From NCBI GenBank assembly GCA_017442825.1, contig JAFRYZ010000037.1, positions 40,585 through 104,584 of the forward strand: DNA of 64,000 bases, read 5' to 3'. The stretch comes from Prevotella sp. Its GTDB lineage: Bacteria > Bacteroidota > Bacteroidia > Bacteroidales > Bacteroidaceae. Below are positions 5,591 to 33,620 of this stretch, one piece after another. The notes under the pieces are model-generated. The model did not search any database, had not been told where the DNA came from, and worked only from the letters and a program-made list of their open reading frames with translations. Each line of letters starts with the position of its first letter. Position 1 is the first letter of the stretch. A program made the translations under genes and the position numbers.

Positions 5591-5651
5591 TTTTCCGAAT
5601 AATGAAATAACGGAAATGCCGGATTTTCCGGACTCTCCAGAAACTCCGGAA
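5591..5651. repeat. 9-bp-period array (NNTCCGGAN)
   Basis: Units ATGCCGGAT, TTTCCGGAC, TCTCCAGAA and ACTCCGGAA run 5616-5651, with more degenerate units before them. It fills most of the iorB-aminotransferase gap. The same unit type follows the aminotransferase and paaK-2 genes. Confidence 0.85.
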
Positions 5652-5670
5652 ATAACCAAAAGAAAAAAAC

Positions 5671-6981
5671 ATGCAAACCCCAATCAACAAAGAGTTAATT
5701 GACAGCTTGATTGCCAAGTTCGGCATCCAAGACTTTGCCAAAGCAACTATCCGCGAGGTAAAGCAAGTTGCTGCCTTCGCAGAAAAAGAATCGGGTGTGG
5801 AATTCATCAAGATGGAGATGGGCATACCCGGACTTCCTGCTGCCAAGGTAGGTGTCGAAGCACAAATGAAAGCTTTGCACGACGGTATAGCCAACCTTTA
5901 TCCAGACATTCAAGGTCTTCCTGAGCTGAAACAACAGGCTTCACGCTTTGTCAAAGCCTTTATCAATGTCGATATCGCTCCCGAAGGATGCGTACCCGTA
6001 TGTGGAAGTATGCAGGGAACGTTTGCTTCTTTCCTGACCTGCTCACAGGCAAACAAGAAGAAAGACACTGTGTTGTTCATCGACCCGGGGTTCCCCGTTC
6101 AGAAAATGCAGTTACAGGTACAAGGCGTCAAGTACGAGACTTTTGATGTCTATGACTATCGCGGCGACAAACTACGCAGCAAGTTGGAGAGCTATCTGAA
6201 AGGCGGAAACATCTGCGCTATCGTCTATAGCAACCCCAACAACCCGGCATGGATCTGCATGACCGATGAAGAACTGCGCACGATAGGAGATTTGGCAAAC
6301 CAGTATGACGTCATCGTCATGGAAGACCTTGCTTATTTCGCCATGGATTTCCGCCAAGACCTGAGCACGCCGTTTGAGGCACCCTATCAGCCCAGTGTCG
6401 CCCACTACACCGATAACTACATCCTGCTCATCAGCGGTTCGAAAGCTTTCAGCTATGCCGGCGAACGCATCGGCGTAACCTGTATCAGCAACAAACTCTT
6501 CCACCGCCATTACGACGACCTGTCAGCACGCTACGAAGGACTGCCCTTCGGACTGGTCTTCTCTACCCGCATGCTCTATGCCCTTTCTTCAGGAACCAGC
6601 CACAGTGCACAGTATGCCATGGCAGCCCTGTTGAAGTCAGCCTGCGACGGAGAATACAACTTCCGCGACGACATCATCGTCTATGGAAAGCGTGCACATA
6701 AGTTGAAGGAGATTTTCCTGCGCCACAACTTCTATATCGTCTATGACAAAGACCAAGACCGTCCCATCGCCGATGGTTTCTATTTCACCATCGGCTATCC
6801 AGGCATGACGAGTGGCGAATTGGCAAAGGAACTGATGTATTACGGTGTTTCAGCCATTTGCCTCATCACAACGGGCAGTCACCAAGAAGGTTTGCGTGTC
6901 TGCACCTCTTTCATTCAGGACCATCAATACGACCAGTTGGAAGAGCGCATGAAGATTTTTGAAGGAAACAATCCGGTTTAA
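5671..6981 (+). CDS. PLP-dependent class I/II aminotransferase, probably aromatic
   Basis: This 436-residue fold-type I aminotransferase has YSNPNNPAWICM (the family NPxNP loop), VMEDLAYFAMDF with the pyridine-nitrogen Asp, and SGSKAFSYAGERIGV with the Schiff-base Lys and phosphate-binding residues. Lying directly after iorAB and before acyl-CoA-forming genes, it most likely interconverts aromatic amino acids and aryl pyruvates, supplying or consuming the IOR substrate. That specificity is inferred from context. The C-terminal residues NNPV are encoded by sequence that already looks like the 9-bp array that follows, so the array may have reshaped the C-terminus. Confidence 0.85.
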   Translation: MQTPINKELIDSLIAKFGIQDFAKATIREVKQVAAFAEKESGVEFIKMEMGIPGLPAAKVGVEAQMKALHDGIANLYPDIQGLPELKQQASRFVKAFINVDIAPEGCVPVCGSMQGTFASFLTCSQANKKKDTVLFIDPGFPVQKMQLQVQGVKYETFDVYDYRGDKLRSKLESYLKGGNICAIVYSNPNNPAWICMTDEELRTIGDLANQYDVIVMEDLAYFAMDFRQDLSTPFEAPYQPSVAHYTDNYILLISGSKAFSYAGERIGVTCISNKLFHRHYDDLSARYEGLPFGLVFSTRMLYALSSGTSHSAQYAMAALLKSACDGEYNFRDDIIVYGKRAHKLKEIFLRHNFYIVYDKDQDRPIADGFYFTIGYPGMTSGELAKELMYYGVSAICLITTGSHQEGLRVCTSFIQDHQYDQLEERMKIFEGNNPV

Positions 6982-6984
6982 AAT

Positions 6985-7047
6985 AATCCGGAAACTCTGG
7001 ACTCTCCGAAAATTCCGGACTCTCTGGAAACTCCGGATATTCCGGAA
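6985..7047. repeat. 9-bp-period array, seven units (NNTCCGGAN)
   Basis: AATCCGGAA, ACTCTGGAC, TCTCCGAAA, ATTCCGGAC, TCTCTGGAA, ACTCCGGAT and ATTCCGGAA follow one another without gaps, starting three bases after the aminotransferase stop. Imperfect TCCGGA palindromes recur in every unit. Confidence 0.92.
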
Positions 7048-7086
7048 CAACAAACACCAACGAAGGTTGCACGTGCAACCTTCGTT

Positions 7087-9210
7087 TCATTTCTCCACCC
7101 TGATGCGGGCATCAACAGCAATGACATCATTTTCATCGGCAAGCAACGGATTGATGTCCATCTCTTTGATTTCCGTTGCAAAACGAAGCAATGTTGACAG
7201 TCGCACGATAATCTCGGCATATTTCCGTTTATTGATACCCTTCATTCCGCGCGTACCTTTTATAATCTTATATCCACGCAAGGAATTGATCATGCTGTAT
7301 GCCTCTTCATAGCTCAACGGTGCCAGACCCGACGACACATCCTTGAGCACTTCGACAAAGATGCCGCCCAGTCCGCAGAGGACCACATGTCCGAAGCGTT
7401 CCTCGTACTTAGCCCCAATAAAAAGCTCCGTACCTTTTATCATTTTCTGCACCATCACCGAAGTAGCACCGTAAATCTTCATCAATCGGTCGAACTCTGC
7501 TGCCAGCACCTCTCGGCTACGAATGTTCAGCGCCACACCGCCGACATCACTCTTATGCACAGGTCCCACCACTTTTGCCACTACAGGATAGCCACACTTG
7601 TCGGCAAAGTCCAAGACCTCCTCCTTCACCTCACTGACAAACTCCGGCACGGTAGGTATTCCTGCACATTCAAGGAGTTCGCGAACCACATGTGGAGGCA
7701 GGTAACCATCGTCTTTACTGTCTTTGGTGTCATTAGGGTCTTTAAGGTCCTTAGAGTCCTTAGGGTCCTTAGGGTCCTTCAAGCTGTCTATAATCCTCCT
7801 GATGCGCGGCACGTCAACCCCGTGTATATCCACCTGCTGGTCTGCCGGTGCCGGTGTTTTCATCACCTGTGTCAGTGCTGTTGCCAGCGTCACCTCATCG
7901 GCAAAGTTCACATGACCTTTCTTCAAGAACTCCTGCACCTCCGGTCCGGCCGTATTCACACTCGGCAAGATGGGGAAGATAGGTTTCTTGCACTCCAAAA
8001 TTTTCTGGTGCAACACGGCATAGGCATCATACAGCCGCACCAAACCCGGTGAACCGAAGATCACCATGATGGCATCGATGTTGTCGAAGTGCTGCTCACA
8101 ATAGTCGATGGCGATACCCAAATGTTCGGGCGTACCCGTTGCCAACACATCAATGGGGTTGCTGACGGCAGCACCAGGCAGCAACTTCGACTTCAGTTCC
8201 TCTGCTCTCTCACCGCTCAGAAGGGGTACCTCCATGCCTCCTTTCGACAAGGCATCGGTCAGCATCACACCAGGACCACCGGCATGGGTGACGATAGCAA
8301 AGTTCTTACCCGTGAACTTAGGCAAGGTAAAGATGCAACCCACTGTCGTCAGTTCCTCACGCGAGAAGCAACGAACGATGCCTGCCTTACGGAAGAGCGC
8401 TTCCACGGCAGAGTCACTGGATGCCAGAGCTCCCGTATGGCTCGATGCAGCCCGGCTTCCACTCTGTGATGTTCCGGCTTTAATGGCAGCAATACGACAT
8501 CCCTTCCGTATCAGCGACGTGGCATGATACAGCAGTTTGTCAGGGTCGGCAATGTTTTCGATATAGAGCAGTTTCACCAGCGAATCCTTCTCAACATCGA
8601 AATGCTCGTCCATATACTCCAGTACGGTCTCAATACCAATCTGTTTGCCGTTGCCTATCGACCACACCGAATTGAACGGTAACCCTTTCGACACGGCACT
8701 CTCCAAGATAAAAACCGCCGTAGCCCCAGAACCAGAGATAAAATCGACCCCTTTCGGATTCAAGTTCGGTATAGGCTTCGTAAACACCGAATGGTGCCAG
8801 CGTGTCAGCAAACCGATACAGTTCGGTCCTATCAAGGCACAGCCATATTTGTCACAGGTTTCTATAATCTGTTGTTCCAACAAGGCACCCTCGTGCGTTT
8901 CCTCACTGAAACCAGCCGAGATAATAATAAATGCACGCACCTGCTTTTCCTTTGCCAGGAATTCCACGTACTCCGGACAGAAACGTGCTGCCACCACCAG
9001 GATGGCAAGATCAGTTGTCGGCAGTTGCTTCACATCATGGAAAACCTTGATACCTTGAATCTCATCCTCCTTCGGATTCACCACACGCAGGACACCTTGA
9101 TATCCTCCATTCAAGATATTGCGGATTACCGCACCGCCAGGCTTATGAACATTATTAGAACCACCGATAACAACAATACTTTCAGGCTGTAGTAACTGTT
9201 GGTTAATCAT
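7087..9210 (-). CDS. ADP-forming acetate/arylacetate-CoA ligase (fused alpha-beta)
   Basis: This 707-residue enzyme is of the acyl-CoA synthetase (NDP-forming) family, which turns acyl-CoA plus ADP and phosphate into acid plus ATP. Seen: an N-terminal CoA-binding domain (SIVVIGGSNNVHKPGGAVI), a middle succinyl-CoA-ligase-like domain with VDFISGSGA and the phosphohistidine segment SRAASSHTGALA, and a C-terminal ATP-grasp domain (GYPVVAKVVGPVHKSDVGGV, MDINPLL). The start at 9210 has GGAG seven bases upstream and a good promoter 32 bases beyond. Opposite iorAB but in the same block, it probably harvests ATP from arylacetyl-CoA. A 24-residue KDP/KDS/KDL tripeptide repeat, encoded by a 9-bp array, lies in the linker before the ATP-grasp domain. 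Confidence 0.88.
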   Translation of the reverse strand: MINQQLLQPESIVVIGGSNNVHKPGGAVIRNILNGGYQGVLRVVNPKEDEIQGIKVFHDVKQLPTTDLAILVVAARFCPEYVEFLAKEKQVRAFIIISAGFSEETHEGALLEQQIIETCDKYGCALIGPNCIGLLTRWHHSVFTKPIPNLNPKGVDFISGSGATAVFILESAVSKGLPFNSVWSIGNGKQIGIETVLEYMDEHFDVEKDSLVKLLYIENIADPDKLLYHATSLIRKGCRIAAIKAGTSQSGSRAASSHTGALASSDSAVEALFRKAGIVRCFSREELTTVGCIFTLPKFTGKNFAIVTHAGGPGVMLTDALSKGGMEVPLLSGERAEELKSKLLPGAAVSNPIDVLATGTPEHLGIAIDYCEQHFDNIDAIMVIFGSPGLVRLYDAYAVLHQKILECKKPIFPILPSVNTAGPEVQEFLKKGHVNFADEVTLATALTQVMKTPAPADQQVDIHGVDVPRIRRIIDSLKDPKDPKDSKDLKDPNDTKDSKDDGYLPPHVVRELLECAGIPTVPEFVSEVKEEVLDFADKCGYPVVAKVVGPVHKSDVGGVALNIRSREVLAAEFDRLMKIYGATSVMVQKMIKGTELFIGAKYEERFGHVVLCGLGGIFVEVLKDVSSGLAPLSYEEAYSMINSLRGYKIIKGTRGMKGINKRKYAEIIVRLSTLLRFATEIKEMDINPLLADENDVIAVDARIRVEK
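7711..7782. repeat. 9-bp-period array, eight units, in frame inside the acyl-CoA ligase
   Basis: On the plus strand the units are GTCTTTACT, GTCTTTGGT, GTCATTAGG, GTCTTTAAG, GTCCTTAGA, GTCCTTAGG (twice) and GTCCTTCAA. On the coding strand they read AAGGACCCT-type codons (Lys-Asp-x). The unit AAGGACCCT also occurs in the intergenic array at 10701-10754. Confidence 0.93.
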
Positions 9211-10695: not shown

Positions 10696-10700
10696 TTTTT

Positions 10701-10754
10701 AAAGACCTTAAAGTCCTTAAAGTCCTTAAAGTCCTTAAGGACCTTAAGGACCCT
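10701..10754. repeat. 9-bp-period array, six units (AAAGTCCTT)
   Basis: Units AAAGACCTT, AAAGTCCTT (three times), AAGGACCTT and AAGGACCCT fill the gap between the two paaK genes. The last unit is identical to the coding unit of the array inside the acyl-CoA ligase. Confidence 0.93.
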
Positions 10755-10773
10755 AATATAACCTAAATAAGAA

Positions 10774-12087: not shown

Positions 12088-12101
12088 AGAGAAAAGCGGA
12101 A

Positions 12102-12146
12102 ATGCCGGACGCTCCGGATAATCCGGAAAATCCGGAGAATCCGAAA
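12102..12146. repeat. 9-bp-period array, five units (NNTCCGGAN)
   Basis: ATGCCGGAC, GCTCCGGAT, AATCCGGAA, AATCCGGAG and AATCCGAAA lie in the gap between paaK-2 and the ACT gene. The unit consensus matches the arrays on both sides of the aminotransferase gene. Confidence 0.92.
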
Positions 12147-12618: not shown

Positions 12619-12716
12619 AGAAAGACCCTCCCCAGCCCTCCCTGTTTAGGGAGGGGGCCTCACGCTTCTGCGGTTACTACTCCCTCCCTAAACAGGGAGG
12701 GCTGGGGAGGGTCTTT
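12619..12716. repeat. Nested palindrome: two inverted G/C-rich hairpin units
   Basis: The left arm (about 12619-12655) and right arm (12680-12716) are reverse complements of each other over about 36 bases. Each arm also contains its own hairpin CCCTCCC-TGTTTA-GGGAGGG. A 24-base spacer separates them. It lies between the converging ACT and mutY genes and could act as a two-way terminator. The mutY stop codon (12677-12679) is in the spacer, so the last codons of mutY (KTLPSPPCLGRE) are encoded by the right arm. Confidence 0.92.
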
Positions 12717-13990
12717 AGTAATATCTCTATCAGTCTCGGAACAGCATAGTTGTCTATCTCCTCCTCCTTTATCCATATATAATCATCTGGCAGCACCGGC
12801 TTCTCCTCCACCTCCCACAAGTAGAAGTCAGCCCAAATAACCCTGTGCGTCAGCACATGCTTAAGGTTGCGTCGCAACAATTGACAATTGACAATTGACA
12901 ATTGACAATTATCATCCCTCCTATGGTCATTACCTATTGGAAACGGTAAATTCTCTATTGCCAATTTTGCAATCGACGAAGTCGCTTCGCTTGTCGAAGT
13001 AATCGCGCAGCGCTTGCAGAGCGAAGCGGCGCAAGAATTGTCAATTATCCGCTCGGCTTTGCCGCTCCTTCGAGCAACAGCGAGTCTGGAGAATTGTAAA
13101 TTGTCAATTGAATATGGTTCCCACAGCCCTTGCCAGATATCGCCGGCACCCCGTCTATGAATAGCCGTCTCGCCGTTGCAGCGGATATATACATACGTCA
13201 TCCGCCGTTCCTTCACCTGCAGTTTCTTCTCTTTCACGGGCAGTTGTTCCACCCTACCCGTTCGAAACGCGTCACACGTCTCCATCAGCGGGCAGTCGCC
13301 ACATTTCGGAGACTTCGGCGTACATTGCAACGCACCGAAGTCCATGATGGCTTGGTTGTAAGTAGCACCTATTGAAGGTTCCGAGTAATCAGAGTAATCA
13401 GAATAATCGGATTGATCAGAGTAATCGGAATATTCGGAGTAATCAGAGTTTTCCGAATCATCTGAACAGACGTTCGGCAACATTTCTTGAGCCAACGCAG
13501 CAAACACCTTCTTGCCTTCCGTAGTATTGATGGGGGTATCTATGCCGAAGTATCTGCTCAGCACACGATATACATTCCCGTCGACAACAGCTGCAGGGAT
13601 GCCAAAGGCGAAGCTGGCGATGGCTGCCGCTGTATAGTCTCCTACCCCTTTCAGCTTTCTTATCTCCTCCAGCGTCTGTGGGAAACCGCCAAGCGCTACA
13701 ATCTGTCGTGCTGCCGCATGCAGGTTCCGCGCCCTACTGTAATAACCCAGCCCTTGCCATTCGCGCAACACCTCATCCTCCGTTGCTGCTGCCAAAGCCT
13801 CCACCGTCTGCCATCGCTGCATAAAACGCTCCCAGTATGCCCATCCCTGCTGGATGCGCGTCTGTTGCAGGATAATCTCACTGAGCCATATTGCATACGG
13901 GTCTTTCGTCTCGCGCCACGGCAGATTCCTGCCATGCTCCTTGTACCAATGTAGCAATGAAGTTGTGAAAAAACTATTCACTATAGTCAT
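12677..13990 (-). CDS. mutY: A/G-specific adenine DNA glycosylase with two repeat-derived insertions
   Basis: MutY removes adenine mispaired with 8-oxoguanine. Seen: SEIILQQTRIQQGWAYWERF, the helix-hairpin-helix LKGVGDYTAAAIASFAFG with VVDGNVYRV (catalytic Asp), and the [4Fe-4S] pattern C-x6-C-x2-C-x5-C. LTHRVIWADFYLWE of the C-terminal NUDIX-like domain is also present. The start at 13990 lies 24 bases after a consensus -7 box; an upstream reading to 14068 begins before the promoter. At 437 residues it is about 80-100 longer than usual. One insertion (SDYSDYSDQ type, a 9-bp array) precedes the Fe-S loop. A second, about 78 residues from a MITE-like element, splits the C-terminal domain. The last 12 residues come from a palindrome. 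Whether the protein still works is uncertain, but the frame is intact. Confidence 0.9.
   Translation of the reverse strand: MTIVNSFFTTSLLHWYKEHGRNLPWRETKDPYAIWLSEIILQQTRIQQGWAYWERFMQRWQTVEALAAATEDEVLREWQGLGYYSRARNLHAAARQIVALGGFPQTLEEIRKLKGVGDYTAAAIASFAFGIPAAVVDGNVYRVLSRYFGIDTPINTTEGKKVFAALAQEMLPNVCSDDSENSDYSEYSDYSDQSDYSDYSDYSEPSIGATYNQAIMDFGALQCTPKSPKCGDCPLMETCDAFRTGRVEQLPVKEKKLQVKERRMTYVYIRCNGETAIHRRGAGDIWQGLWEPYSIDNLQFSRLAVARRSGKAERIIDNSCAASLCKRCAITSTSEATSSIAKLAIENLPFPIGNDHRRDDNCQLSIVNCQLLRRNLKHVLTHRVIWADFYLWEVEEKPVLPDDYIWIKEEEIDNYAVPRLIEILLKTLPSPPCLGRE
12878..13110. repeat. MITE-like element with CAATTGACAATT ends, translated inside mutY
   Basis: The left end is a run of four to five ACAATTG heptamers and the right end carries AATTGTCAATTG, the exact inverse of CAATTGACAATT. 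In between lie short palindromes such as GCTCGGCTTTGCCGCTCC and GAAGTCGCTTCGCTTGTCGA. The whole length is read through in the mutY frame. Confidence 0.8.
13379..13468. repeat. 9-bp-period array, ten units (ATCAGAGTA), in frame inside mutY
   Basis: TTCCGAGTA, ATCAGAGTA, ATCAGAATA, ATCGGATTG, ATCAGAGTA, ATCGGAATA, TTCGGAGTA, ATCAGAGTT, TTCCGAATC and ATCTGAACA run without gaps. On the coding strand they give Ser-Asp/Glu-Tyr tripeptides. Confidence 0.94.
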
Positions 13991-14363: not shown

Positions 14364-17300
14364 CTACTTAATGACAACTTTCTTACCATTGATGATATAG
14401 ATACCCTTCAGCAGATGACGGTTCGACAAAGCTGACTCGTAGTCATCAGCTACCTTGCGCCCTTGCAGGTCGTAAACTGCACCGTCAGAATACTGATGAC
14501 TGTGAACACCTGTACCAACATCAGAAACACCCGTTGCGATATCTGGCGTTTCCTCAAAGACAAATGCTGCGCCACGACTACCCTGTGTCTCATTATAGAA
14601 TGGACTGATATAGAACACACGGTTCGGATTAAGCACCTTAGATAAAGCTGATGTACTACGCTTGAAGAATCCGACACGACCTGTGTACTTACCATCTATC
14701 GTCTCGCCTGTATAACCTTCATAAACGTTTTCGCGACCGAACGTGTACAACTCAGGACGAGAGTCAAATATCGACAGGTAGATTCCTGATATCTTGTTCA
14801 CTCGCTCTGAATTCACGTCTAAGTCTCCGCGAAGCTTTGCGTCCGGATGGGGAGCATTGTTCAGTACCTTGAAGGAAATCTCTGCTGCGGCATCGTCGGA
14901 CTTAATGACAACTGGCGTTGCAGCAGGAATTATTTTCTCGCCATAATCCGGGTTTATATAGTCCAGAGTGCGACAGAATAACGTGTATTTATCATCAGCC
15001 TTGGGATTAGCCGAATAGTTATGATCTTCCACTCCATAGAACGGCTTGGCATCAATATCTGCAGGTATCTCCACATCGAAAGGAACATACAGCGAGGCAT
15101 AGCTCTTTCCGAATGCTGCATTCAGCTTCAGTTTGAAGCTCAGTTCGTTACCACCCTCGCCGACCTTCTGCATGTAGAAGCGGGTTTTGTACTGTCCTGC
15201 CTGCTCATCGAAGCATTGGTCGGTGCTTGTCTCGGTGGCGGTTGAAGTACAACTCAGGTAATCGTGTGGCATATCGCCGGTGAGGCTGGCAATCTTAATC
15301 TGCGCGATGGCACCACCAAGGTTCTCGTAGCGACACTTGTAATCGCTCTCAGCATCGATGGAGTTCAAACCAGTGTGGTCCAGACTGAGTCCCTGTGTCT
15401 TGATGAAGTAGCGAGGATAGCCGTTCTCGGTACCGTCACTTGTAGTACCCTCGAACCAGAAGATGGTGGAAGGATCGTATTCTGCAGCAGTCTGTGTTTC
15501 CACCTTCAGGTTTCTGTTATATCCGCCAGAGCCTGTACGTTCCCTGTCATCAAGATAGCCACGAATGTACTTGTGCTCGTCGCTACCGTCTTCCTGCGTA
15601 TATGGCACGATGCGGTAGTAACCCTGCGTCATCTGTACGATGTTCACCGGGTCGTCAACGAGTTCACGGACGGCAGCCTTGTCTTCATCGCTAAGGTCAC
15701 CGTCGGCAGCATCCGCACGCATGGCATCCGTCACCTTGTCATACTTCAGGCCGCCTACGAATCCGGCATACTTCACATACTCCGCCAGTGTGGCATCCGA
15801 CTGGATTTCCAAGCGGAAGTTAGCAGGATTACCTTGGCCGGTTTGTTGCAGTTGGTAGGAAGTTTTCTTCTCGTCGGGAATGATGCTGGCACTGCCGTTA
15901 AAGTTCTGTCCGACATAGCTGTAGCTGTCAGTAGCATATTCCGCCAGATAGTCTGCCGCATAGACGGGGTGCATCCAGAAGTTATAACTATGAAGTCCCG
16001 GCATCATCTCGAAGACGTTCTGCGTGTCGGTGCTGTTCTGTTCCAACTGCAAGCCCTCGTTATTGTTGTCGCGATAATCCATCACGCGGATGTACTCGTC
16101 GTAACGCTGGTCGGGATCGTAACGGTTGAGCATCTTGAAGCCGTATGGGTCACCAATGACGCACCATTCGAAGTAGTTCAGATAAAGTTCACTCTGCGTC
16201 AGTGGCTTGCTGACACGCAGGTGCGGGTCATTGGTACGGAAGACCATCTTGCCCAATTCGCCGTTCGGACAGTGGTTGTTCACCATGTAATACCAGTGCT
16301 TGCCTGTGTAGTCTTTGGTCGCGGTACTCCAATCGAACGGGCTGTTTACCTCGTAGTCTATAGTAATGGCAATCGGGTCGGAGCTGTCTGCCATCGCATC
16401 GGTAACGGTAGTTACAGCCGTTCCGTTCCACTTATAGGTGTAGTCGCAGAAAGCGCGTCTCCATGTTTCCGGCATAACGCCCAGCAGGCTCTTGCCCACC
16501 GACTGATAGCCCAGCGTTGTAGTCAGTGCAGTCTTATCGGGTCGCAGTGAACTGCTACCGAAATTGAGTGTGAGTGTCAGTCCAGAGATACCTCTTGTAG
16601 AGAGGAACTCGGTGCTGCCGTTAGCATAGTTGCCCGCATTCACGGCTGGTGTTTGGCTGGCAAAGACGCGCACGTCGCCATCCTGGTAGCTTATGGCCGC
16701 CATATCGGCAGTGTTGCCATCCAGCAGGTCGAGCGTCGAGCCTTGGGCGGTGAGTGTCAGTGCGGTTCCCGTCGTTGTGCCGGGGAAGGTGAAGTATGTC
16801 TGTGTGCTCTTGTTGTAGAGTTTCACGCCGTAAGGCGTACCCACCAGTCGCCAGTGGAACTGTGTGTTGTCACGGTCAGTCTGCGTGACGTTCGGTTCAT
16901 ACTTGCTGTTGATACCTCCCTCGTTATTTGCATACAGGATGTTGTTGCCAGTATGTATCATGTACCACTTGTCGCTTGATGAAGTACCTGCGGCATCATA
17001 GAACGTCGGAGCATCGTCGGTATATTCCGCTTTCACGTAGATGTTCACTCCAGTGTCATCATCCGAGACTGCATATTCCGGAATGGTGTAGCTGCCTGCG
17101 GTACCGTCACATGTACTTTCAAGATAGATACCTGTATAGCTCAGGTAGTGGCGGCGGAGCGACTCAGGCATATTGTCAATCGTCAGCTCTACGCCTTCTG
17201 AAACGCGCGGCTTACTGAACGTTGCCACGTTCGTGCCGCCGAGCATGACGTTCCACGTCAGCGGATGTTGCAGCACGGCAGTAGTCAAGTCAATTGGCTG

Positions 17301-26300: not shown

Positions 26301-28346
26301 GTCTATCCAGCGTGAGCCGGCATTGGTGTTGTCTGTGGTCAGGGTGATGGGCAGATTGTTGACGGTTACTTCGAACTCTGCCGTAGTCAACTCAGTGACG
26401 GCATTGTTGACGGCACTGCTGCTGCTGACGGTGGCAGCCTGCACGCCATCGACCAGCAGGTTGTAGTTGTAGGTGCCTTGACTCTTATAGGTTTCGCCAT
26501 AACCTATCACAGCCTTGTACTTGCCGCGAGGCAGGGCTGAGGTTACGGTGGCGGTGGTGCCGCTCACCAGATTGCCTGCCATGCCGCCAGAACCGAGTGC
26601 CATAGCCCAGTAGCGGCCGTGACTGGTCTGCGGCAAGTCGAGGTCGGCACCGAGGATGGTCATGCCAGCCATGTCCTCGCCTTCCACCAAGAGTGTGGCC
26701 TTCGGGGTGTAGTCGTCTACCTGCAAGGAAGAGAGGTTCTGTTCGCTATAGCTGATGTTACTGGGTGTGCTGGTGGTGGTGATAGTCTGCGCGTAGTTGG
26801 GGCGCTCGCTGTTGGCTGCCACCTCGTAGAGTTTGTCGCCGCTGACAATGTAGCGGGGTACGGCAAACGACTTGTCGCCGTCGGTGTCGGTTTTGACGGT
26901 GGCAAGGGTGGTGCCGAGACTCGACTGCACGGTGAGGTCGTGAACCGGCGCTGCGTTCAGCTGAGCGGTATAAGCAGAACCGTCCCACAGCTGGCTGATG
27001 AGGTACTGGATGTCGCGCTTGACGAACTCGTTGGTCTGGTCGTCACGGTAGATGGCGAGCAAATCCTCAATGTGGTTGTTGATGCTGGCCTCCAGTCCGA
27101 TGTTCATGGTGTAGCCGATACCGCTGCCGCCGTCGGCATAATAACCGCCGGTGACGGGCACGGTCTTACCGCTTGCCGTGGAGAAGGTCGGCGCTCCCGT
27201 TGCGGTGAGTCCGGGGATGTTGAGCGTCAGCTCACGGTACTGGTTCTTGTTGTAGGTGGGCACCTTCACGTCGAAGGTGAGGTTGCCGTCAGCGTAGTTG
27301 ACGTTCTCTATCTGCAGGTTGTTGTAGATGTGGTAGTATTCCCATATCTCGTCGGCTGAGCCTACCCATGCGTTGTTGGTCACGTTGGATGCGGAACGAA
27401 GATGGCTCTTTATCTCGTCGCCCAGTCCGTGGGTACCGCCGATAATCATTCTGGTGCCGTCGGCAGCATCGACATTCGTCTTCCATGAACTCTCGTTACC
27501 TTGGAAAAAACTGCGGATATAGCCGCCCGTAGGCTTGTTGCTGAAGGTAGTGGGCATAGTTCCGTTAGTCCAGTCAACGATGGTTTTGCTGTTGTCAGGA
27601 TATGTGCTGGTGCTGTTCTGGAAGATGTTCCAGCACACACCACTATTCTGATTTCCGGCTTCAAGATAGTTGTGGTTGCCGTTGGGCTCTACCATCACCT
27701 TCAGACCGATGCCTACTTTGTTTGCCCACTGGGTGCTGTTGGCGGTCATCGCCGTAGAGATGTTTGCTACGGAACTGATGTCGTCAACGTCGTGCTGGGC
27801 GAAGCTCCAACCTGTGCGCAGCATCAGCTTGGCGTCGTTGGCATCAATGTGCGAGTAGTCGCTGCTGCCGTCCGACTTCAGCAGATACGGCATGATGGCT
27901 GAGGTCATGCGGTAGCGCTGCGTCTTGCCTACGTTGTCGGTATAGGTCATGGGCTGATAGTCGGCTGGATCGCTGCTCTCGCCCTGCATGTAGTACTTCT
28001 TGTACGGAACTGCGAGGAACTTTGTTCCGCCAGGCTGAATGCCTAAGTCCACGTTGGCGTTGATGTTGGGGTAGCCGTTCACCTCTGCCCAGTTGTTGGT
28101 CAGCTCGGTCTTACCCATGTCGTCGCTGGTGATAACGAGGGGGAAGGTCTTGTTGTACTTCACCCGTGCCATCTGGGGCGCGCCCTTGCCGGTACCCCCT
28201 TCGTCGGCATTGTATGCCGTTGCGGGTATCGTAACGGTGACGGTCTCGTAGCCTGTAACATCAGCCTGTGCAGTCATGGGAGTTCTCCCAAACAGGATGA
28301 TGCCGAGAAGCATCAATAGTTTCTGCATTACATTCTTCATATTCAT
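14364..28346 (-). CDS. Giant (4,660 aa) secreted multidomain repeat protein with type IX-like C-terminus
   Basis: A signal peptide (residues 1-28, hydrophobic LLMLLGIILFG) is followed by a possible polysaccharide-deacetylase-like domain at about 50-460 (VITSDDMG, WSFAQHDVDD, WVGSADEIWEYY). Next come a CBM6/35-like domain at 552-690 (LLVEGEDMAGM, WIDYIYFVQTG) and an Ig/FN3-like domain at 697-795. From about residue 800 to 4350 are repeated modules with IDKSGxxAL, YRSPFAxxYKYY, VYVGYDV and a G-x-PY-x-x-K-x-x-N motif found 12 times, 230-440 residues apart. A second Ig-like domain interrupts them near 1420-1530. The C-terminus has a beta-rich region and ends VYDLQGRKV...GIYIINGKKVVIK, like type IX sorting domains. 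Probably a cell-surface glycan-binding or glycan-modifying protein exported through SprA. Enzymatic activity is unproven. It follows the yhcG gene by 24 bases, with no clear promoter between. Confidence 0.85.
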   Translation of the reverse strand: MNMKNVMQKLLMLLGIILFGRTPMTAQADVTGYETVTVTIPATAYNADEGGTGKGAPQMARVKYNKTFPLVITSDDMGKTELTNNWAEVNGYPNINANVDLGIQPGGTKFLAVPYKKYYMQGESSDPADYQPMTYTDNVGKTQRYRMTSAIMPYLLKSDGSSDYSHIDANDAKLMLRTGWSFAQHDVDDISSVANISTAMTANSTQWANKVGIGLKVMVEPNGNHNYLEAGNQNSGVCWNIFQNSTSTYPDNSKTIVDWTNGTMPTTFSNKPTGGYIRSFFQGNESSWKTNVDAADGTRMIIGGTHGLGDEIKSHLRSASNVTNNAWVGSADEIWEYYHIYNNLQIENVNYADGNLTFDVKVPTYNKNQYRELTLNIPGLTATGAPTFSTASGKTVPVTGGYYADGGSGIGYTMNIGLEASINNHIEDLLAIYRDDQTNEFVKRDIQYLISQLWDGSAYTAQLNAAPVHDLTVQSSLGTTLATVKTDTDGDKSFAVPRYIVSGDKLYEVAANSERPNYAQTITTTSTPSNISYSEQNLSSLQVDDYTPKATLLVEGEDMAGMTILGADLDLPQTSHGRYWAMALGSGGMAGNLVSGTTATVTSALPRGKYKAVIGYGETYKSQGTYNYNLLVDGVQAATVSSSSAVNNAVTELTTAEFEVTVNNLPITLTTDNTNAGSRWIDYIYFVQTGTLEPQPPTAAIAASAGTTASIKTGNSITITANATQHGGSNYTGIKIYQCNDDAGTVSGDALATSNTETVSYTFTPSTAGTYYFKAVANDATLNDGTSEVITVTVVDNIDTYTLKIIDKSGSIALTTTVAAASLTTDPLPDAYRSPFAQNYKYYNTIAEAQANSGSAFATTDDWIQSTVYVGYDVDATKMAEGKVHAIWANGRYMHVIQNAGKSHNTQKSWHNAYSVQNQQYDVEGTDATRIGYSTGPYVQHNNITPTTLPFLDNSYMWELGTDPYNIKLKNKAYGFYQSSNAYNNQILYDVDEEASAETYCLLYWADKNGGNVDTSADYYRLMYKTDLTDDGVANKRTMYQWNNYWRINNDNNWNTYGKLYIKELPAININILNDAKEVECTLQGYFKSEATMPSDGTDNGTSYYTPFNLYRSYTSKHKWWYDAATTDAVSSGSAPDATKIENNGGNIYVTYTLDEVWGSGTFSDTKQPFHLYPSNGGTVYWYSVRLNPANSSYSWFLKANSDINQPLQNCNGTNLATSDYDSSHKEYYWAFKGTPYNLKIINMHHGDGYYLGVSKTATDIDAQTYLLPDTEDNNVTWEMTDGLSQNNMYPFFRLRASYNGENTSSANPLYISYNSSTPNNANLAKVAGGNQSIGLTEKTTTDITKVSLTADAAPYYVDEAITLTATAMPSPPGTDRVSSLVIEQEVEGVWTPVGTAYAGSDVAGVAEKDATTKTVTVTYDFTPTAEGTFNFRAHAVVDNEDQYSTAETTAGGDGDVVEIIATVKQLEPKNSSYTLTLIDKGGNELLTETSVPASRITNVNSLTNRNGDPFDNAYRSPLVTLYKYYEGTVAGKASAEAADVDNQVDWNTYTGTTVYVGYEVSDAIDLNGGKFSSLNDDASSLMQMRKARSASESTLVRDASKFGKMYLLKFKTNADYYSENGSDRRESNPTPSGSFVYPYTNGDGPIYVYDDARYQKQKDDGASTRTRWPWFLVSPNGDPYHVYVTSWQNAHATVTGKDANNKDVSTNYYSYLRTYYNSTTGTVVTNNVTDDPSTLDGSSNQILPTDYMILRGSGTDGLNYKLTTVAAISDGTTTERRTVTSIEQYWRNNPTAQLESGGEKNVTVVATDNATLESFGWKNYSAYVNAAKWDGSNYDNGKTKKYLNDNHWFQTISLGDGSLDIVEANIDGVLVLLDNHGWEIMRKPIVAKDDPDYETVKAALRKYDSPMVKQYKFYSTRNVKHKVAGYHKYDINRQTDTVTPTTPLTDAADRVDKDKTITSLADYEPHTSGGALTDLYVTYEVKDEYANSYTGAATEAATSASNFLLKQGSSYAKANGTAIESTSDASTADHWKLKPNFNIDAEMGYCYQGSGNSYDNELTQTALETLYYNGGTDSRNGFDPYNLQIQNATTSTYFTTNASTATLDAGAWSGNGSALNLQTIATRISPTGSDSKTLAVTNATFMAVQDQYGNMRLMPRFQHEQVVDNFATLADPATLSAYDATNAQTTQLTTPVTYHIIDNSGNDALQMTVTSGIGLSVPDALKSPMVSEYQFHSTQAHASAAETRATGDLTVAQEDVYVSYTVDATKMAAAKKYAISNASSNLYMHAVFQPVQTGSQQSQHYTLEYQSYDVKLPTVTDANTVNTGNLPFVDNTYLWSMGDDPYRVVLSNYGVNDYKYLKQNSSDSNNGYKAEFTDAASASTYCLLYWNGDTTSPYCSFRFVDPSNATETFTGETAQRYITSNVHQSNYRWQQDTSGSAEGTKFVIAELPEMNVNVVNAAGAVEYTLSGRYVAGATLPASNATPYFLQRAYVNSHTYYYTLAGAAASENVITAGTVPAAETLESNITEGKYNIYVRYELDSNWNSSNLFQVSNGENKHWYFLTSGNSSQRIYTDTDKNVKGSATVTDNTAKWALSGTPYALRIENRANEGYHIGVAADAASSTTNLMVYNEGDYVFDWELRLINFNNISAALDTKPVFLPQGAISNEAPLLYVQANGNNGLNWKNTNAAHFTFEDGMLVELVIIDKSGGEALTEGFTAAQVTAASGDPLSAELRSPFAKNFKYYDNATDAQNNSGENTVADLTAKIDQRVYVGYDVKTVEEGGLDFTGATGYTLRGGKRYMRALYNPADNHSVSNRWSLRNQSLDYVGATGAVDAETFPFLDNSHLWFFEGDPYNMKLKNKLSGWYAKQENNKNAGYRANMVTTDASSYCILYYTVENSSYYAFYNRDYNSYLYMNTGADGGSWRLQDTKRSEGQIYLRTPEQVNMNVVNPRNGEVESVMQTYYNEYNSGKTLTTIVPLFLQRSYTSGQTLYYSKADAAAATNAITAGTDQVVYASLTDGDSDGVKDIYLGYTLDSGWKIPEATDGDNFEYLLRTSASAGAGYWHRVNFANGATNYLYINNSGNLAKTNVAPSVTEETETSSITNDDKLKLWAFVGSPYSLKLLNMGSKGKYLGTDATAANNSQIKMVGASATNVISTWEMVQGLNRTGSTEPFLRLQNGLSGESPLLYLNDNGKLSEGSSQNGGSQIQWTYLKHTNGTDINFHLYNSDGNSMSLSGEAEQLSAGTGMLAAFQSAQPNLVRKFCTYEFYTSSDFAEEHKVTEVDQDATDIYVKWTGYTDDAPVFSTDVDNAQFYTMLGQYWIWVDSNDEIKYTNSGVNPNQEGVTTAGLHWSFIGTPYGLKIYNRGAKKYLKAASLASNAAVSLTGDAAEATDWELTDMGDNANQMSFSCKADNSLKWSSATAIGTTVNSKTLNNIIIPLQVYKEDGIERVDSLGYMFNYPATDETKLTASMLTSGSYGNRIYKHAFCDYTLYSDDALTEIVPAEGISFFGGAGQQKRGIWATYTVNEEDFRLAYLMSASKSGTTYFYYKNSSNFMASENGTDATALKQMARNNGDKIYRWQLTGDPYNLQITNLSMEGTPLGDDVIGYAQADENKLRLSNDVVNSVFEVIETADPSLDVAGETTWHVAFYLLPNESVSTRYTTGIDFYGGMLQSPFVYTNGAQPIDLTTAVLQHPLTWNVMLGGTNVATFSKPRVSEGVELTIDNMPESLRRHYLSYTGIYLESTCDGTAGSYTIPEYAVSDDDTGVNIYVKAEYTDDAPTFYDAAGTSSSDKWYMIHTGNNILYANNEGGINSKYEPNVTQTDRDNTQFHWRLVGTPYGVKLYNKSTQTYFTFPGTTTGTALTLTAQGSTLDLLDGNTADMAAISYQDGDVRVFASQTPAVNAGNYANGSTEFLSTRGISGLTLTLNFGSSSLRPDKTALTTTLGYQSVGKSLLGVMPETWRRAFCDYTYKWNGTAVTTVTDAMADSSDPIAITIDYEVNSPFDWSTATKDYTGKHWYYMVNNHCPNGELGKMVFRTNDPHLRVSKPLTQSELYLNYFEWCVIGDPYGFKMLNRYDPDQRYDEYIRVMDYRDNNNEGLQLEQNSTDTQNVFEMMPGLHSYNFWMHPVYAADYLAEYATDSYSYVGQNFNGSASIIPDEKKTSYQLQQTGQGNPANFRLEIQSDATLAEYVKYAGFVGGLKYDKVTDAMRADAADGDLSDEDKAAVRELVDDPVNIVQMTQGYYRIVPYTQEDGSDEHKYIRGYLDDRERTGSGGYNRNLKVETQTAAEYDPSTIFWFEGTTSDGTENGYPRYFIKTQGLSLDHTGLNSIDAESDYKCRYENLGGAIAQIKIASLTGDMPHDYLSCTSTATETSTDQCFDEQAGQYKTRFYMQKVGEGGNELSFKLKLNAAFGKSYASLYVPFDVEIPADIDAKPFYGVEDHNYSANPKADDKYTLFCRTLDYINPDYGEKIIPAATPVVIKSDDAAAEISFKVLNNAPHPDAKLRGDLDVNSERVNKISGIYLSIFDSRPELYTFGRENVYEGYTGETIDGKYTGRVGFFKRSTSALSKVLNPNRVFYISPFYNETQGSRGAAFVFEETPDIATGVSDVGTGVHSHQYSDGAVYDLQGRKVADDYESALSNRHLLKGIYIINGKKVVIK
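14367..14590 (-). other. Type IX secretion-like C-terminal sorting domain of the giant protein
   Basis: The last 75 residues carry the pattern V-Y-D-L-Q-G-R-K-V, then L-L-K-G-I-Y-I-I-N-G-K-K-V-V-I-K. This is the Por-secretion-tail-like ending common in Prevotella proteins. It points to export by the type IX system, whose translocon gene sprA is in this window. Confidence 0.7.
15296..25949 (-). repeat. Internal protein repeats of the giant gene (12 PY-motif modules)
   Basis: The G-x-PY-x-x-K-x-x-N motif is encoded near 25448, 24633, 23303, 22103, 21318, 20550, 19780, 18990, 18274, 17587, 16828 and 16142. Most units are 690-820 bp apart; two early ones are 1.2-1.3 kb apart. The DNA copies are diverged, so the duplication is old and recombination between copies is not obvious. 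Confidence 0.85.
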
Positions 28347-30020: not shown

Positions 30021-30152
30021 GATACCATCGCATGGTAAACACGATACCAAGTGACGGTATCAACGATACCATACACTGGTACTGACAATACCAAGTGCTG
30101 GTACTCGCACTACCAACGTCTGGTACTCGCAGTACCAAATGTTGGTATCGGT
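30021..30152. repeat. 22-bp tandem hairpin array, six units
   Basis: Six gapless 22-bp units start at 30021, 30043, 30065, 30087, 30109 and 30131, followed by a partial unit. Each has TACCA, six variable bases, then GGTA (mostly TGGTA), so each unit is a small hairpin. The loop and linker bases vary while the arms are kept. Confidence 0.93.
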
Positions 30153-30462: not shown

Positions 30463-31830
30463 CTATCTGCACAGCAAGGCACAGACACGATCCTGGAAGT
30501 CACGCCCGACCTTTGCCTTGGGGATGCCCATGTTGATGATGGAGAAGCACAGACGGTGACCATTGGCGGCGGTGCAATAGCCGGCAAGGGCACTGACTCC
30601 CGTCACGGTGCCGGTCTTCGCCTGCACGTTACCTTGTGCCTTTGTACCTTTCATGCGACTCTTCAGTGTTCCATCGACACCAGCAACAGGGAGTGACGGC
30701 AGTAATTTCTCGATGATTTCGGGCTTTTTTGCAGCATAACGCAATAATTGCACCTCCATGTCGGGCGTCACATAGTTGTATAAGGACAGGCCGCTGCCGT
30801 CTGCAACATGGATGAGTTTCTGGTCAGCACCGGCACGGGTGACGAGTCGGTCGATATAACTGCGGGCTGGTTTTACGCCGGCACCACGTCCTCCCTGCTG
30901 GTGGGCAATCTGATAGAACAACGACTCGGCATACCAGTTATCGCTGCGCTTCATCATCGGCACGAGGACATCGGCAAGGTCATGGGTACGGGTAGCGACA
31001 AGGGTGGTGGCAGCAGGTGCCGCCGACTGACCGATGCCACCAAGGACGGTGATGCCGACAGCGTTCAAAGCTGACAGCAGACGGGAAGCAGCCTCATCCT
31101 TACCACCGACGAGCAGCGGCGACAGGTTGGGGTTGTCGTCGTCCCAGCACCAGCCTTCGCCCCACTTGTCGGCATCACGGAAGGTACGGTCTTCGTAGAT
31201 GCTGCCTGTAATGGTGTCGATGCCCAACACCTTCACCGCATCGGCAAAGGCACGGATGTCAGCATCGCTGAACAAAGGGTCCATGCCACCAACGAGGTAG
31301 AGGGAGCCGGATAGGGTTGAAGGTTGAGGGTTGAGGGCTGAAAGTTGAAAGTTGAGGGAGGATTTGTCGGACGAGTCGGACGGGGCGGAGTTGTCAGACT
31401 GGTCGGACAATGCTGGTGGGGGGACGATGGTGCCGGAGTAGCGGAGGGCGGTCTTAAACAGATAGTTGCCACCGAGGAGATCAAGGGCAGCAATGGCGGT
31501 GACGACCTTCTGCGTAGAAGCAGGACGCATGCGCCAACACTCGTTGTGACGGAACAGACAGCTGTCGGCATCGAGGTCCCAGACCTCCATGCCCACCTGC
31601 GTGGTCTCAAAGAGCTTTTCCTGCACCATTATGGTCAACTGATAACGCACCGCCTCATCCCAAGGCAACTCCTGCGGCACGGAGCCGATGGCAAACGTGT
31701 CGGCGAATATCGTATCGGCAACGATGGTGTCGGCAGATGCTATAGAGGTCGTGGAGAACACAGCTTGTGCTTGCAAAGAAAGAAGGCAGGCTACAAGACT
31801 GGGGACGGCAATAAGATGGGGAGTTTTCAT
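30463..31830 (-). CDS. dacB: D-alanyl-D-alanine carboxypeptidase/endopeptidase (PBP4 type)
   Basis: This 455-residue class C-type penicillin-binding protein trims or opens peptidoglycan cross-links in the periplasm. Seen: a signal peptide (residues 1-24), the active-site ASTQK (SxxK), SDN in MKRSDNWYAESL (SxN) and KTGTVTGVSALAGY (KTG). Length is close to the family norm. Just after the SxxK region lies a low-complexity stretch, SDQSDNSAPSDSSDKSS then LNFQLSALNPQPSTLS. It is encoded by a 9-bp array followed directly by a 7-bp array. It sits 123 bases downstream (minus direction) of nadB, with a palindrome and another 9-bp array between. Confidence 0.93.
   Translation of the reverse strand: MKTPHLIAVPSLVACLLSLQAQAVFSTTSIASADTIVADTIFADTFAIGSVPQELPWDEAVRYQLTIMVQEKLFETTQVGMEVWDLDADSCLFRHNECWRMRPASTQKVVTAIAALDLLGGNYLFKTALRYSGTIVPPPALSDQSDNSAPSDSSDKSSLNFQLSALNPQPSTLSGSLYLVGGMDPLFSDADIRAFADAVKVLGIDTITGSIYEDRTFRDADKWGEGWCWDDDNPNLSPLLVGGKDEAASRLLSALNAVGITVLGGIGQSAAPAATTLVATRTHDLADVLVPMMKRSDNWYAESLFYQIAHQQGGRGAGVKPARSYIDRLVTRAGADQKLIHVADGSGLSLYNYVTPDMEVQLLRYAAKKPEIIEKLLPSLPVAGVDGTLKSRMKGTKAQGNVQAKTGTVTGVSALAGYCTAANGHRLCFSIINMGIPKAKVGRDFQDRVCALLCR
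31314..31362. repeat. 7-bp tandem array, seven units, inside dacB
   Basis: GGGTTGA, AGGTTGA, GGGTTGA, GGGCTGA, AAGTTGA (twice) and GGGAGGA. It joins the 9-bp array at 31363 without a gap. Read on the coding strand it gives the LNFQLSALNPQPSTL segment. Confidence 0.92.
31363..31407. repeat. 9-bp-period array, five units (NNNGTCGGA), inside dacB
   Basis: TTTGTCGGA, CGAGTCGGA, CGGGGCGGA, GTTGTCAGA and CTGGTCGGA. Coding strand gives SDQ-SDN-SAP-SDS-SDK. It directly abuts the heptamer array. Confidence 0.92.
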
Positions 31831-31856
31831 TATTTGTGATGGGGGTATGGGGGTAT

Positions 31857-31901
31857 GGGCTAGATAGGATAGATTTACTAGAGAAACTAGAGGGACTAGA
31901 A
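31857..31901. repeat. 9-bp-period array, five units (NNACTAGAG)
   Basis: GGGCTAGAT, AGGATAGAT, TTACTAGAG, AAACTAGAG and GGACTAGAA lie in the nadB-dacB gap. Immediately before it is a GGGGGTAT repeat. The period equals that of the other arrays but the sequence differs. Confidence 0.85.
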
Positions 31902-31918
31902 AGTATATCAGGGTTAAT

Positions 31919-31957
31919 CTCCCTCCCTAAACAGGGAGGGTTTGAGGAGGGTCTTAG
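31919..31957. repeat. G/C-rich palindrome at the nadB 3' end
   Basis: CTCCCTCCCTAAACAGGGAG is identical to the start of the right arm of the mutY-end palindrome (12680 onwards), and the shared GAGGGTCTT follows. The hairpin CCCTCCC-TAAACA-GGGAGGG could end nadB transcription. The nadB stop codon lies within the element. Confidence 0.88.
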
Positions 31958-33537
31958 TCGTAGGCATGGAGGGGGTAGTCGGTAGTGAAGTGGAGGCAAC
32001 GGCACTCCTTACGTTCTATCGCCCAGCGGGTGATGAGGTAGCCGACGTTGATGATGTTACGCAACTCGCAGATGTCCTTGCTTGCCTTGACACGCTTGAA
32101 GAGGGCTTCCGTCTCCTCATAGATGAGGTCGAGACGGTCCCAGGCACGCTTCAGGCGGAGGTCGGAACGGACGATGCCCACGTAGTTTGCCATGATCTCG
32201 TTGACTTCCTTGACGCTCTGTGTGATGAGCACACGCTCCTCGTTGGTCATCGTCCCCTCGTCATTCCACTCCGGAATGTCGGTGTTAAAGGTATATTCAT
32301 CGATATGTTCGAGAGAATGGCGTGCCGCCGTCTCCGCATAGACCACCGCCTCGATGAGCGAGTTGGAGGCTAAGCGGTTGCCACCATGCAGTCCTGTGCA
32401 GGAACATTCGCCGATGGCATAGAGGCGGTTGATACTGCTACAGCCGTCTAAGTCTACCTTGATGCCGCCACACATATAATGGGCAGCGGGGCGAACGGGG
32501 ATGTATTCCTTCGTAATGTCGATACCGATGGAGATGCACTTATGGTAGATATTGGGAAAATGGCGCTTGGTTTCTGCCGCATCTTTGTGGGTGACATCGA
32601 GACATACATGGTCGATGCCGTGCACCTTCATCTCCTTGTCGATGGCGCGGGCTACGATGTCGCGCGGTGCAAGGGAGAGACGCTCGTCATACTTCTCCAT
32701 GAACGACTCGCCGGTAGGGAGCCGGAGGATGCCGCCATAGCCGCGCATAGCCTCTGTAATCAAGAAGGCAGGATGCGTCTCACCGACATGGTGAAGAACG
32801 GTGGGATGGAACTGCACGAACTCCATGTCGGCAACGGTTCCTTTGGCACGATAGACCATAGCGATGCCGTCGCCAGTGGCAATGACAGGATTGGAAGTGG
32901 TTTGATAGACTGCCCCTACTCCACCCGTACACATCACGGTGACCTTAGCCAGATAGGTGTCCACCTTCTGCGTCTTCGGGTTCAGCACGTATGCACCATA
33001 GCACTCGATGTCGGGCGTGCGTCGCGTCACCTCCATGCCGAGGTGGTGCTGGGTGATGATCTCGACGGCAAAATGGTCTTCACGGATGTCGATGTCGGGA
33101 TGGTCTTTGACGGCTTCCATGAGTCCACGCTGAATTTCTGCTCCCGTGTCGTCGGCATGGTGGAGGATGCGGAACTCCGAATGGCCGCCCTCACGGTGCA
33201 GGTCGAACTCACCATTGCTCTGTTTGTCGAAATTGACTCCCCAGTGGACCAGTTCGGTGATTTGCTCAGGTGCCATACGCACCACTTGTTCTACGGCAGC
33301 GCGGTCGGAAATGTAGTCACCCGCTATCATCGTGTCTTCGATGTGCTTGTCGAAATTGTCAACTTTCAGGTTGGTCACACTGGCAACACCGCCTTGCGCA
33401 AAGGAGGTGTTCGCCTCATCGAGGGCTGTCTTGCAAATGAGGCAAATCTTACCTTTATGGGCACGTGCCACCTTCAGAGCGTAACTCATACCGGCGATGC
33501 CAGCACCAATGATGAGGAAGTCGTACTTGTAGGTCAT
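31954..33537 (-). CDS. nadB: L-aspartate oxidase
   Basis: This 527-residue FAD enzyme oxidises L-aspartate to iminoaspartate, the first step of de novo NAD synthesis. Seen: the dinucleotide-binding IIGAGIAGMSYALKVA, SFAQGGVASV, the active-site region EFVQFHPTVLHH, RGYGGILRLP, and the FAD-binding end GECSCTGLHGGNRLASNSLIE. Length is normal. No nadA or nadC is in the window. It is downstream of sprA on the same strand across a 99-base gap holding a 9-bp-type array. The stop is inside a palindromic repeat. Confidence 0.96.
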   Translation of the reverse strand: MTYKYDFLIIGAGIAGMSYALKVARAHKGKICLICKTALDEANTSFAQGGVASVTNLKVDNFDKHIEDTMIAGDYISDRAAVEQVVRMAPEQITELVHWGVNFDKQSNGEFDLHREGGHSEFRILHHADDTGAEIQRGLMEAVKDHPDIDIREDHFAVEIITQHHLGMEVTRRTPDIECYGAYVLNPKTQKVDTYLAKVTVMCTGGVGAVYQTTSNPVIATGDGIAMVYRAKGTVADMEFVQFHPTVLHHVGETHPAFLITEAMRGYGGILRLPTGESFMEKYDERLSLAPRDIVARAIDKEMKVHGIDHVCLDVTHKDAAETKRHFPNIYHKCISIGIDITKEYIPVRPAAHYMCGGIKVDLDGCSSINRLYAIGECSCTGLHGGNRLASNSLIEAVVYAETAARHSLEHIDEYTFNTDIPEWNDEGTMTNEERVLITQSVKEVNEIMANYVGIVRSDLRLKRAWDRLDLIYEETEALFKRVKASKDICELRNIINVGYLITRWAIERKECRCLHFTTDYPLHAYD

Positions 33538-33549
33538 AGGGGTTGTATT

Positions 33550-33620
33550 TTTTCGTTATTACGGTATTTCGGTATGACGGGATGTTGTTATTTCGGGATG
33601 GCGGTATATCGTTATGACGT
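33550..33620. repeat. Degenerate 9-bp-period array between sprA and nadB
   Basis: Units such as ACGGTATTT, CGGTATGAC, GGGATGTTG, TTATTTCGG, GATGGCGGT and ATATCGTTA fit a 9-bp period with strong divergence. It occupies most of the 99-base gap. Confidence 0.7.

Follow-up and report, generated by a model that had tools for sequence, protein, structure and literature searches.

Tandem arrays of the analysed window

The stretch analysed here (the window, 64 kb, C66:40585-104584) belongs to a metagenome-assembled genome (MAG) of rumen-type Prevotella (G000, a 79% complete draft of 2.31 Mb in 69 contigs), and our subject is the short tandem arrays that it carries both in the gaps between genes and inside genes. 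Genes neighbouring the arrays match the families of IorA/IorB-like subunits, aminotransferase, ADP-forming acyl-CoA synthetase, PaaK, MutY, PBP4, and NadB, the IorA and PaaK matches scoring under the NCBIfam cut-offs. The small gene beside the array at 12095-12145, which we take to be ACT-like, gave no match in NCBIfam. Two large minus-strand open reading frames (ORFs) are also present, at 14364-28346 (4660 aa) and 33637-41166 (2509 aa).

Arrays were detected using Tandem Repeats Finder (TRF) and a lag-match scan (Table 1), and five dinucleotide shuffles of the window, which served as control, contained zero arrays at the observed lags. An earlier note on this DNA had listed nine 9-bp arrays with different unit sequences. 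The period holds for eight of them, including three weak or degenerate ones (starting at 5609, 31356, and 31877), but the array listed at 33550 has a period of 8 bp according to TRF (8.1 copies, 64% matches); its type is also present in gaps of relatives. TRF called 9-bp units, or 18- and 27-bp multiples of them, for the arrays starting at 6987, 7711, 10699, 12113, and 13383, and the lag-match scan gave lag 9 for four of these five and lags 18 and 27 for the array at 6987. The weak array within the PBP4-like gene was called as 2.0 copies of 27 bp and 2.4 copies of 9 bp, and the array at 5609-5650 was too degenerate to be detected by either method. The stated diversity of units holds only in part, as the arrays listed at 5616, 6985, 12102, 13379, and 31363 have, by eye, a common TC(N)GA or TCCGGA core. 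The arrays starting at 7711 and 10699 also look alike by eye, but unit clustering assigns them to separate families. Beyond the nine, TRF adds three 7-bp arrays, two 8-bp arrays, and one 22-bp array to the window.

Table 1. Tandem arrays and a related module in the window
Position	Strand	Feature	Location	Detection
2602..2659	+	7-bp array GAGAGTT		TRF, lag scan
5609..5650	+	degenerate 9-bp array, TCCGGANNN units	gap between IorB-like and aminotransferase genes	
6987..7047	+	9-bp array TCCGGANNN, detected through periods of 18 and 27 bp	gap 3' of aminotransferase gene	TRF, lag scan
7711..7779	-	in-frame 9-bp array, encodes (K-D-x)n in linker	within acyl-CoA synthetase (ADP-forming)-like gene	TRF, lag scan
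10699..10756	+	9-bp array, TTAAAGTCC type	gap of two PaaK-like genes	TRF, lag scan
12095..12145	+	9-bp array TCCGGANNN	between second PaaK-like gene and small gene	TRF (12113-12143), lag scan
12877..12910	+	7-bp array ACAATTG	within mutY	TRF, lag scan
13011..13035	-	partial copy of GC-rich module M1	within mutY; 7-bp repeat sequence borders one side	
13383..13449	-	in-frame 9-bp array, encodes (S-D/E-Y)n	within mutY	TRF, lag scan
30076..30147		22-bp array, palindrome within unit		TRF
31315..31355	+	7-bp array GGTTGAA	within PBP4-like gene	TRF, lag scan
31356..31408	-	weak in-frame 9-bp array, encodes S-D-x	within PBP4-like gene, adjoins 7-bp array	TRF
31839..31859		short 8-bp array		TRF
31877..31900	+	borderline 9-bp array ACTAGAGAA, 2.7 units	upstream of PBP4-like gene	TRF score 34
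33551..33615	-	degenerate 8-bp array, ATANCGNN type on minus strand		TRF
54523..54564	+	8-bp array AAAGGGAG		TRF, lag scan

Array periods in Prevotella and related genomes

Period counts were made with one caller and one threshold in three samples, namely our own sample (464 kb, the window and 400 kb more of G000), 80 syntenic loci kept for the PaaK-like protein of the window (1.18 Mb in total, titled mostly as MAGs of Prevotella, Prevotellaceae, Bacteroidaceae, or Bacteroidales, with ruminant stomachs as a frequent source), and 20 stretches from 12 further genomes of the genus (400 kb). Arrays with units of 7, 8, 9, 10, 11, and 22 bp numbered 28, 6, 15, 3, 6, and 11 in our own sample, 89, 28, 13, 1, 6, and 33 in the syntenic loci, and 16, 7, 5, 0, 1, and 8 in the further genomes. 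One shuffle of our own sequence yielded zero arrays, and 100 kb of E. coli K-12 had none with units of 6-12 bp. Heptanucleotides made up 28 of the 60 arrays of 6-12 bp in our own sample and 89 of 140 in the syntenic loci; they were not the leading class in G170, a genome sampled at the order level (1 of 14 arrays), nor in stretches rich in 9-bp arrays. The 9-bp class is a real secondary peak in our own sample, where 6 and 12 bp have 1 array each. With regard to the excess of period 9 over its neighbours for which the earlier note had proposed to look, 9 bp does exceed 8, 10, and 11 bp in this sampled part of the genome, but it is itself exceeded by 7 bp (28 vs 15). Spacing of identical hexamers in our own sequence and in relatives likewise shows excesses at 7, 8, 9, 14, and 22 bp and a smaller one at 11 bp, and the signal at multiples of 3 partly reflects codon periodicity, which E. 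coli has as well.

Arrays of this kind reach beyond the genus Prevotella, because the samples of other genomes of the order and of G170 also hold 6-12 bp arrays, at 92 per Mb in six other order genomes and 87.5 per Mb in G170, densities that are biased by the choice of contigs through pattern matches (as were the samples of G035 and G039 mentioned below). Array abundance varies within the genus, since of two single-contig genomes G044 reaches 105 arrays (6-12 bp) per Mb, with 7-bp arrays making up 12 of 21, and G024 only 15 per Mb. Between the samples compared (G024 C1 and G044 C1, L299-L318) the gap in density is approximately sevenfold.

Array turnover at matching sites

The closest syntenic relative fetched was Prevotella sp. 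UBA2746 (L007), whose first PaaK-like protein (PaaK1) is 94% identical to that of the window. Six 9-bp arrays could be compared. One of them, in the gap between PaaK1 and PaaK2, is shared with matching flanks and spans 81 bp in the window and 54 bp in L007, the 27-bp difference being three units. The other five sites have different content in L007, where two gaps and the acyl-CoA synthetase linker contain inverted CCC-rich sequence, the next gap a 7-bp array, and MutY an insert rich in purines. Arrays at matching sites are thus gained, lost, or replaced, and they turn over fast. Among gaps shorter than 330 bp in the 80 syntenic loci, arrays were found in 16 of 53 after PaaK2 (ten 7-bp, five 8-bp, the rest with longer periods) and in five of the 48 that separate the PaaK genes, but in none of the 22 before PaaK1, the 23 from IorB to the aminotransferase, or the 6 that follow the aminotransferase; none of the arrays in these gaps has a 9-bp period. 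At two places of L097 (7512-7623 and 10493-10561), the same 11-bp array occurs with like flanks and differing lengths.

The gene-internal arrays are in frame and encode (K/S)-D/E-x tripeptides, essentially as the earlier note had proposed. Those of PBP4, MutY, and acyl-CoA synthetase are insertions that keep the frame and lie in loops, and the relatives examined lack them. None of the 29 relatives aligned (from 46 other genomes matching) has the PBP4 insert (approximately residues 135-169), in which a 7-bp and a 9-bp array adjoin; at this site 28 of them have 2-4 residues and one has 11. The MutY loop was compared in 30 relatives (29 loci, out of 55 other matching genomes, and L007): it has 9 residues in 18 of them, 11-15 in five, and 18-62 in seven, against 41 in the window, and the S-D/E-Y repeat occurs in none of the 30. 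Inverted 7-bp arrays lie at the MutY loop site of L271. The acyl-CoA synthetase linker is 33 residues long in the window and 12 in the six relatives whose match was cleanly anchored, mis-anchored matches having been set aside. The arrays are not only above chance (no shuffle produced any), but also look young or active, given the difference of exactly three units and the absence of the gene-internal arrays from relatives. Arrays lying wholly inside ORFs amounted to 24 of 47 for 9 bp, 55 of 148 for 7 bp, 6 of 49 for 8 bp, and 1 of 16 for 11 bp, as judged by a crude ORF caller which called 90% of bases coding and may pick spurious ORFs; three of the 24 cases are a conserved GNPINP stretch rather than repeats proper.

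Dispersed unit families

The earlier note had reasoned that arrays with different sequences are not copies of one another, which is contradicted by unit clustering, as the units group into dispersed families to a degree that exceeds a null of shuffled units. In our own sample, 32 7-bp arrays fall into 5 families, seven 11-bp arrays into 1, 11 8-bp arrays into 7, and 19 9-bp arrays into 12, and pairs of similar units number 109 (7 bp), 5 (8 bp), 8 (9 bp), and 14 (11 bp) compared with means of 21.7, 0.2, 0.5, and 0.1, respectively, when letters were shuffled within units. In G000 the AAGTCCTTA type is present at five sites. Elsewhere in the family it was found on seven contigs of G193, at three sites in G254, and once in G195, all three belonging to genera other than that of G000, but not in the remaining 77 of 81 genomes (<=3 mismatches).

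The spaced TCCGGANNN pattern has 13 matches per strand in the whole of G000 vs 0 for the reversed control (<=2 mismatches). It matched in 23 of 60 genomes of the genus and the control in 15 of 60, so that low counts are uninformative; the highest counts were in G035 (84), G039 (60), G058 (28), G009 (14), G000 (13), and G015 and G030 (8 each), against a control maximum of 6. The ATAACGNN pattern matched in 14 of 119 genomes of the order, with G170 and G000 at the top, but its control also matched in many, with up to 25 matches per strand (G106). Pairs of exact TCCGGA within 40 bp of each other are spaced only by multiples of 9 in the stretches of G035 and G039, which were chosen for the motif, and in our own sample also once each by 17, 22, and 26 bp. 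A conserved core with a variable NNN was considered as a DNA-level signal and set aside as largely ascertainment, because the arrays found by periodicity showed column concentration of substitutions in 0 of 79 cases at p<0.05 (power per array being low). TCCGGANNN occurs in differing frames across different long ORFs, and of 140 pairs of neighbouring NNN triplets in TCCGGANNN chains, 27 consist of identical triplets, compared with 4.2% expected.

Long simple-sequence repeats as the most probable explanation

With a probability of about 0.6, we consider that the arrays are long simple-sequence repeats (LSSRs) with units of 5-11 nt, in a Prevotella lineage rich in such repeats. LSSRs go back to Mrazek et al. 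2007; according to the summaries in PMC4679880 and PMC4692102, they have 5-11-nt units with heptanucleotides commonest, coding regions favour unit lengths that are multiples of three, and polymerase slippage has been proposed as their origin. It is because of this shared unit range, the prevalence of heptanucleotides, and the proposed slippage that we place the arrays here, and the earlier statement that no described system matches them fails on these publications. They would thus be a rich example of an already known kind of repeat rather than a separate 9-bp system. Slipped-strand replication would make arrays grow by one or several units per event, as suggested by the difference in whole units, the occurrence of multi-unit periods, and the likeness between adjacent variable triplets; the higher-order periods of 14, 18, 21, and 27 bp fit multi-unit duplications. 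Operon gaps and exposed loops may retain arrays because few constraints would act there, and 9-bp arrays might survive inside genes through unit changes that preserve the frame.

Several observations weigh against this explanation. The change in unit number was seen only once, in a comparison with a related species, and the 7-bp mutY array at 12877-12910 has the same unit number in the window and L007. The 29 PBP4 relatives are approximately 49-56% identical over the best segment, which leaves the age of the insert loose. Array density is uneven, with three arrays and zero 7-bp arrays in the sample of G024. Moreover, slippage alone does not account for one unit recurring at many loci of a genome or for the AAGTCCTTA family in scattered genera (4 of 81 genomes of the family), and it does not explain GC-rich modules that adjoin two different 7-bp families.

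Composite structures and alternative explanations

These modules (M1 and M2) recur in our own sample, and by our reading eight of their nine best hits (E<=1e-8) lie directly against 7-bp repeat sequence at one end or both, an adjacency inflated by ascertainment because both modules were chosen from array flanks. The search (blastn-short, E<=1) gave 35 hits vs 11 for the reversed modules, and weak hits were not counted. The GC-rich modules beside arrays are still the strongest hint that slippage falls short of the whole story. It is conceivable, though rather doubtful, that a dispersal process in rumen Prevotella sets kits of short modules in frame into permissive loops and into operon gaps, the 9-bp arrays being one such module. 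In this reading, the kits would comprise 7-11-bp arrays, GC-rich hairpin modules, and CCCTCCC palindromes, and related species would carry differing kits at a given site.

An inverted CCCTCCC...GGGAGGG element lies at 12619-12717 at the 3' end of mutY and provides the last codons of MutY, and a second CCCTCCC/GGGAGGG element lies at 31920-31957, at the end of nadB and upstream of the PBP4-like gene. In relatives, CCCTCCC-like sequence is found in 10 of 48 PaaK1-PaaK2 gaps, 4 of 53 gaps after PaaK2, and some acyl-CoA synthetase linkers. Long hairpins with inverted 7-bp arms around a common TTTGCTNCCGC core were observed in L044 (10635-10826), L012 (6876-6972), L020 (4075-4171), and L009 (122-317).

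A rather doubtful alternative is that the arrays are variable ends or targets of small non-autonomous composite elements (GC-rich modules, CCCTCCC palindromes, and inverted array arms) moved by a transposase in trans. Apart from the recurrence of M1 and M2 next to two 7-bp families, it is favoured by the inverted orientation of 17 of 18 pairs of same-family arrays lying within 400 bp of each other in relatives, many of which form long hairpins, by the differing inserts at the same loop or gap across species, and by the precedent of BrickBuilt, a Porphyromonas miniature inverted-repeat transposable element (MITE) described in PMC4596501 as holding a 23-nt minisatellite. However, the link to M1 and M2 is partly ascertainment, 0 of 2 near pairs are inverted in our own sample, and no match turned up in G000 (79% complete) for Y1_Tnp, the only transposase family searched for. 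Inversion of near pairs is true of relatives but fails in our own sample, and was rejected as a general rule.

It is unlikely that selection keeps the units, either as hairpin-forming spacers or as (S/K)-D/E-x protein linkers. Several window arrays fold well (a result with no shuffle control), the palindromicity of 8-, 9-, and 11-bp units is level with the highest of 200 shuffled-unit nulls (the families not being independent), and the gene-internal arrays encode hydrophilic tripeptides. On the other hand, no relative in the alignments has the PBP4 or the MutY insert, TCCGGANNN lacks a constant frame, substitutions are not concentrated in columns, and 7-bp units are not unusually palindromic.

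A process that specifically makes or keeps 9-bp repeats, as first suggested for this DNA, is very improbable and was rejected on the basis of the sampled period counts. In its favour, our own sample has more arrays of 9 bp than of 6, 8, 10, 11, or 12 bp, and the window carries a mild local cluster (five in 64 kb vs 10 in 400 kb; Poisson P ~0.02, post hoc); nevertheless, 7-bp arrays outnumber 9-bp arrays in our own sample and even more so in relatives (89 vs 13), 8- and 11-bp arrays also occur in the 464 kb, and relatives hold more 8-bp than 9-bp arrays and a further peak at 22 bp. Synthesis of repeats from a template by a reverse transcriptase, in the manner of telomerase, would agree with mixed units of 7-11 bp and with few arrays below 7 bp, but it is extremely unlikely in view of the many unit families per genome and the lack of an RVT_1 match in G000 (E<=0.001, 79% complete). 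Chance or an assembly artefact, conceivable in a draft of 69 contigs, is just as implausible, because shuffles yield zero arrays, one of the two single-contig genomes of the genus (G044) is array-rich, and the window and L007, which are separate records, have one array and its flanks in common.

Significance and comparison with known systems

This lineage allows the origin, expansion, and disappearance of 7-11-bp repeats to be traced at matching sites, among them loops in the housekeeping enzymes MutY and PBP4. It also calls for caution, since length-variable low-complexity inserts in proteins of the MutY and PBP4 type can be repeat insertions rather than conserved domains. If dispersal of unit families does exceed what slippage can do, an undescribed small-repeat process might operate in Bacteroidales.

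Cyanobacteria have heptanucleotide repeats known as short tandemly repeated repetitive (STRR) sequences, which include gene-internal cases. Tandem heptanucleotides are present in Calothrix, for example (PMC4692102). STRR sequences resemble the present arrays in their dispersed heptamer families; however, they belong to another phylum, and units of 8, 9, 11, and 22 bp also occur here. Direct repeats of TAACTGA are reported in Beggiatoaceae, Cyanobacteria, and five Bacteroidetes, and two close Cyanothece strains differ by indels in 7-nt steps (PMC4679880). According to the same source, these are likewise short intergenic tandem arrays with a patchy distribution, but they consist of a single unit, which in the type genome usually sits immediately 5' of a start codon, whereas the arrays described here have many units and lie in gaps as well as genes. 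BrickBuilt of Porphyromonas gingivalis, from the same order, similarly contains a tandem repeat within a small repeated element, but as presented in PMC4596501 its unit is 23 nt and it has a leader and a tail with inverted ends, features that would set it apart from the 9-bp arrays. The 9-bp peak is unexpected because the survey in PMC4060949 points to a mild 7-nt and no 9-nt excess in Bacteroidetes (medians of 0.75 for 7n3 and 0.00 for 9n2 in its Table 2). Our literature search on tandem or heptamer repeats in Prevotella or Bacteroidetes turned up no paper, which is no proof that none is in print. The closest likeness is to LSSRs, as judged by unit range and by heptanucleotides being commonest rather than by the published length criterion, and many arrays here are imperfect. 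Unlike LSSRs, the arrays of the window lineage mix several unit lengths and families per genome and form in-frame inserts in housekeeping genes.

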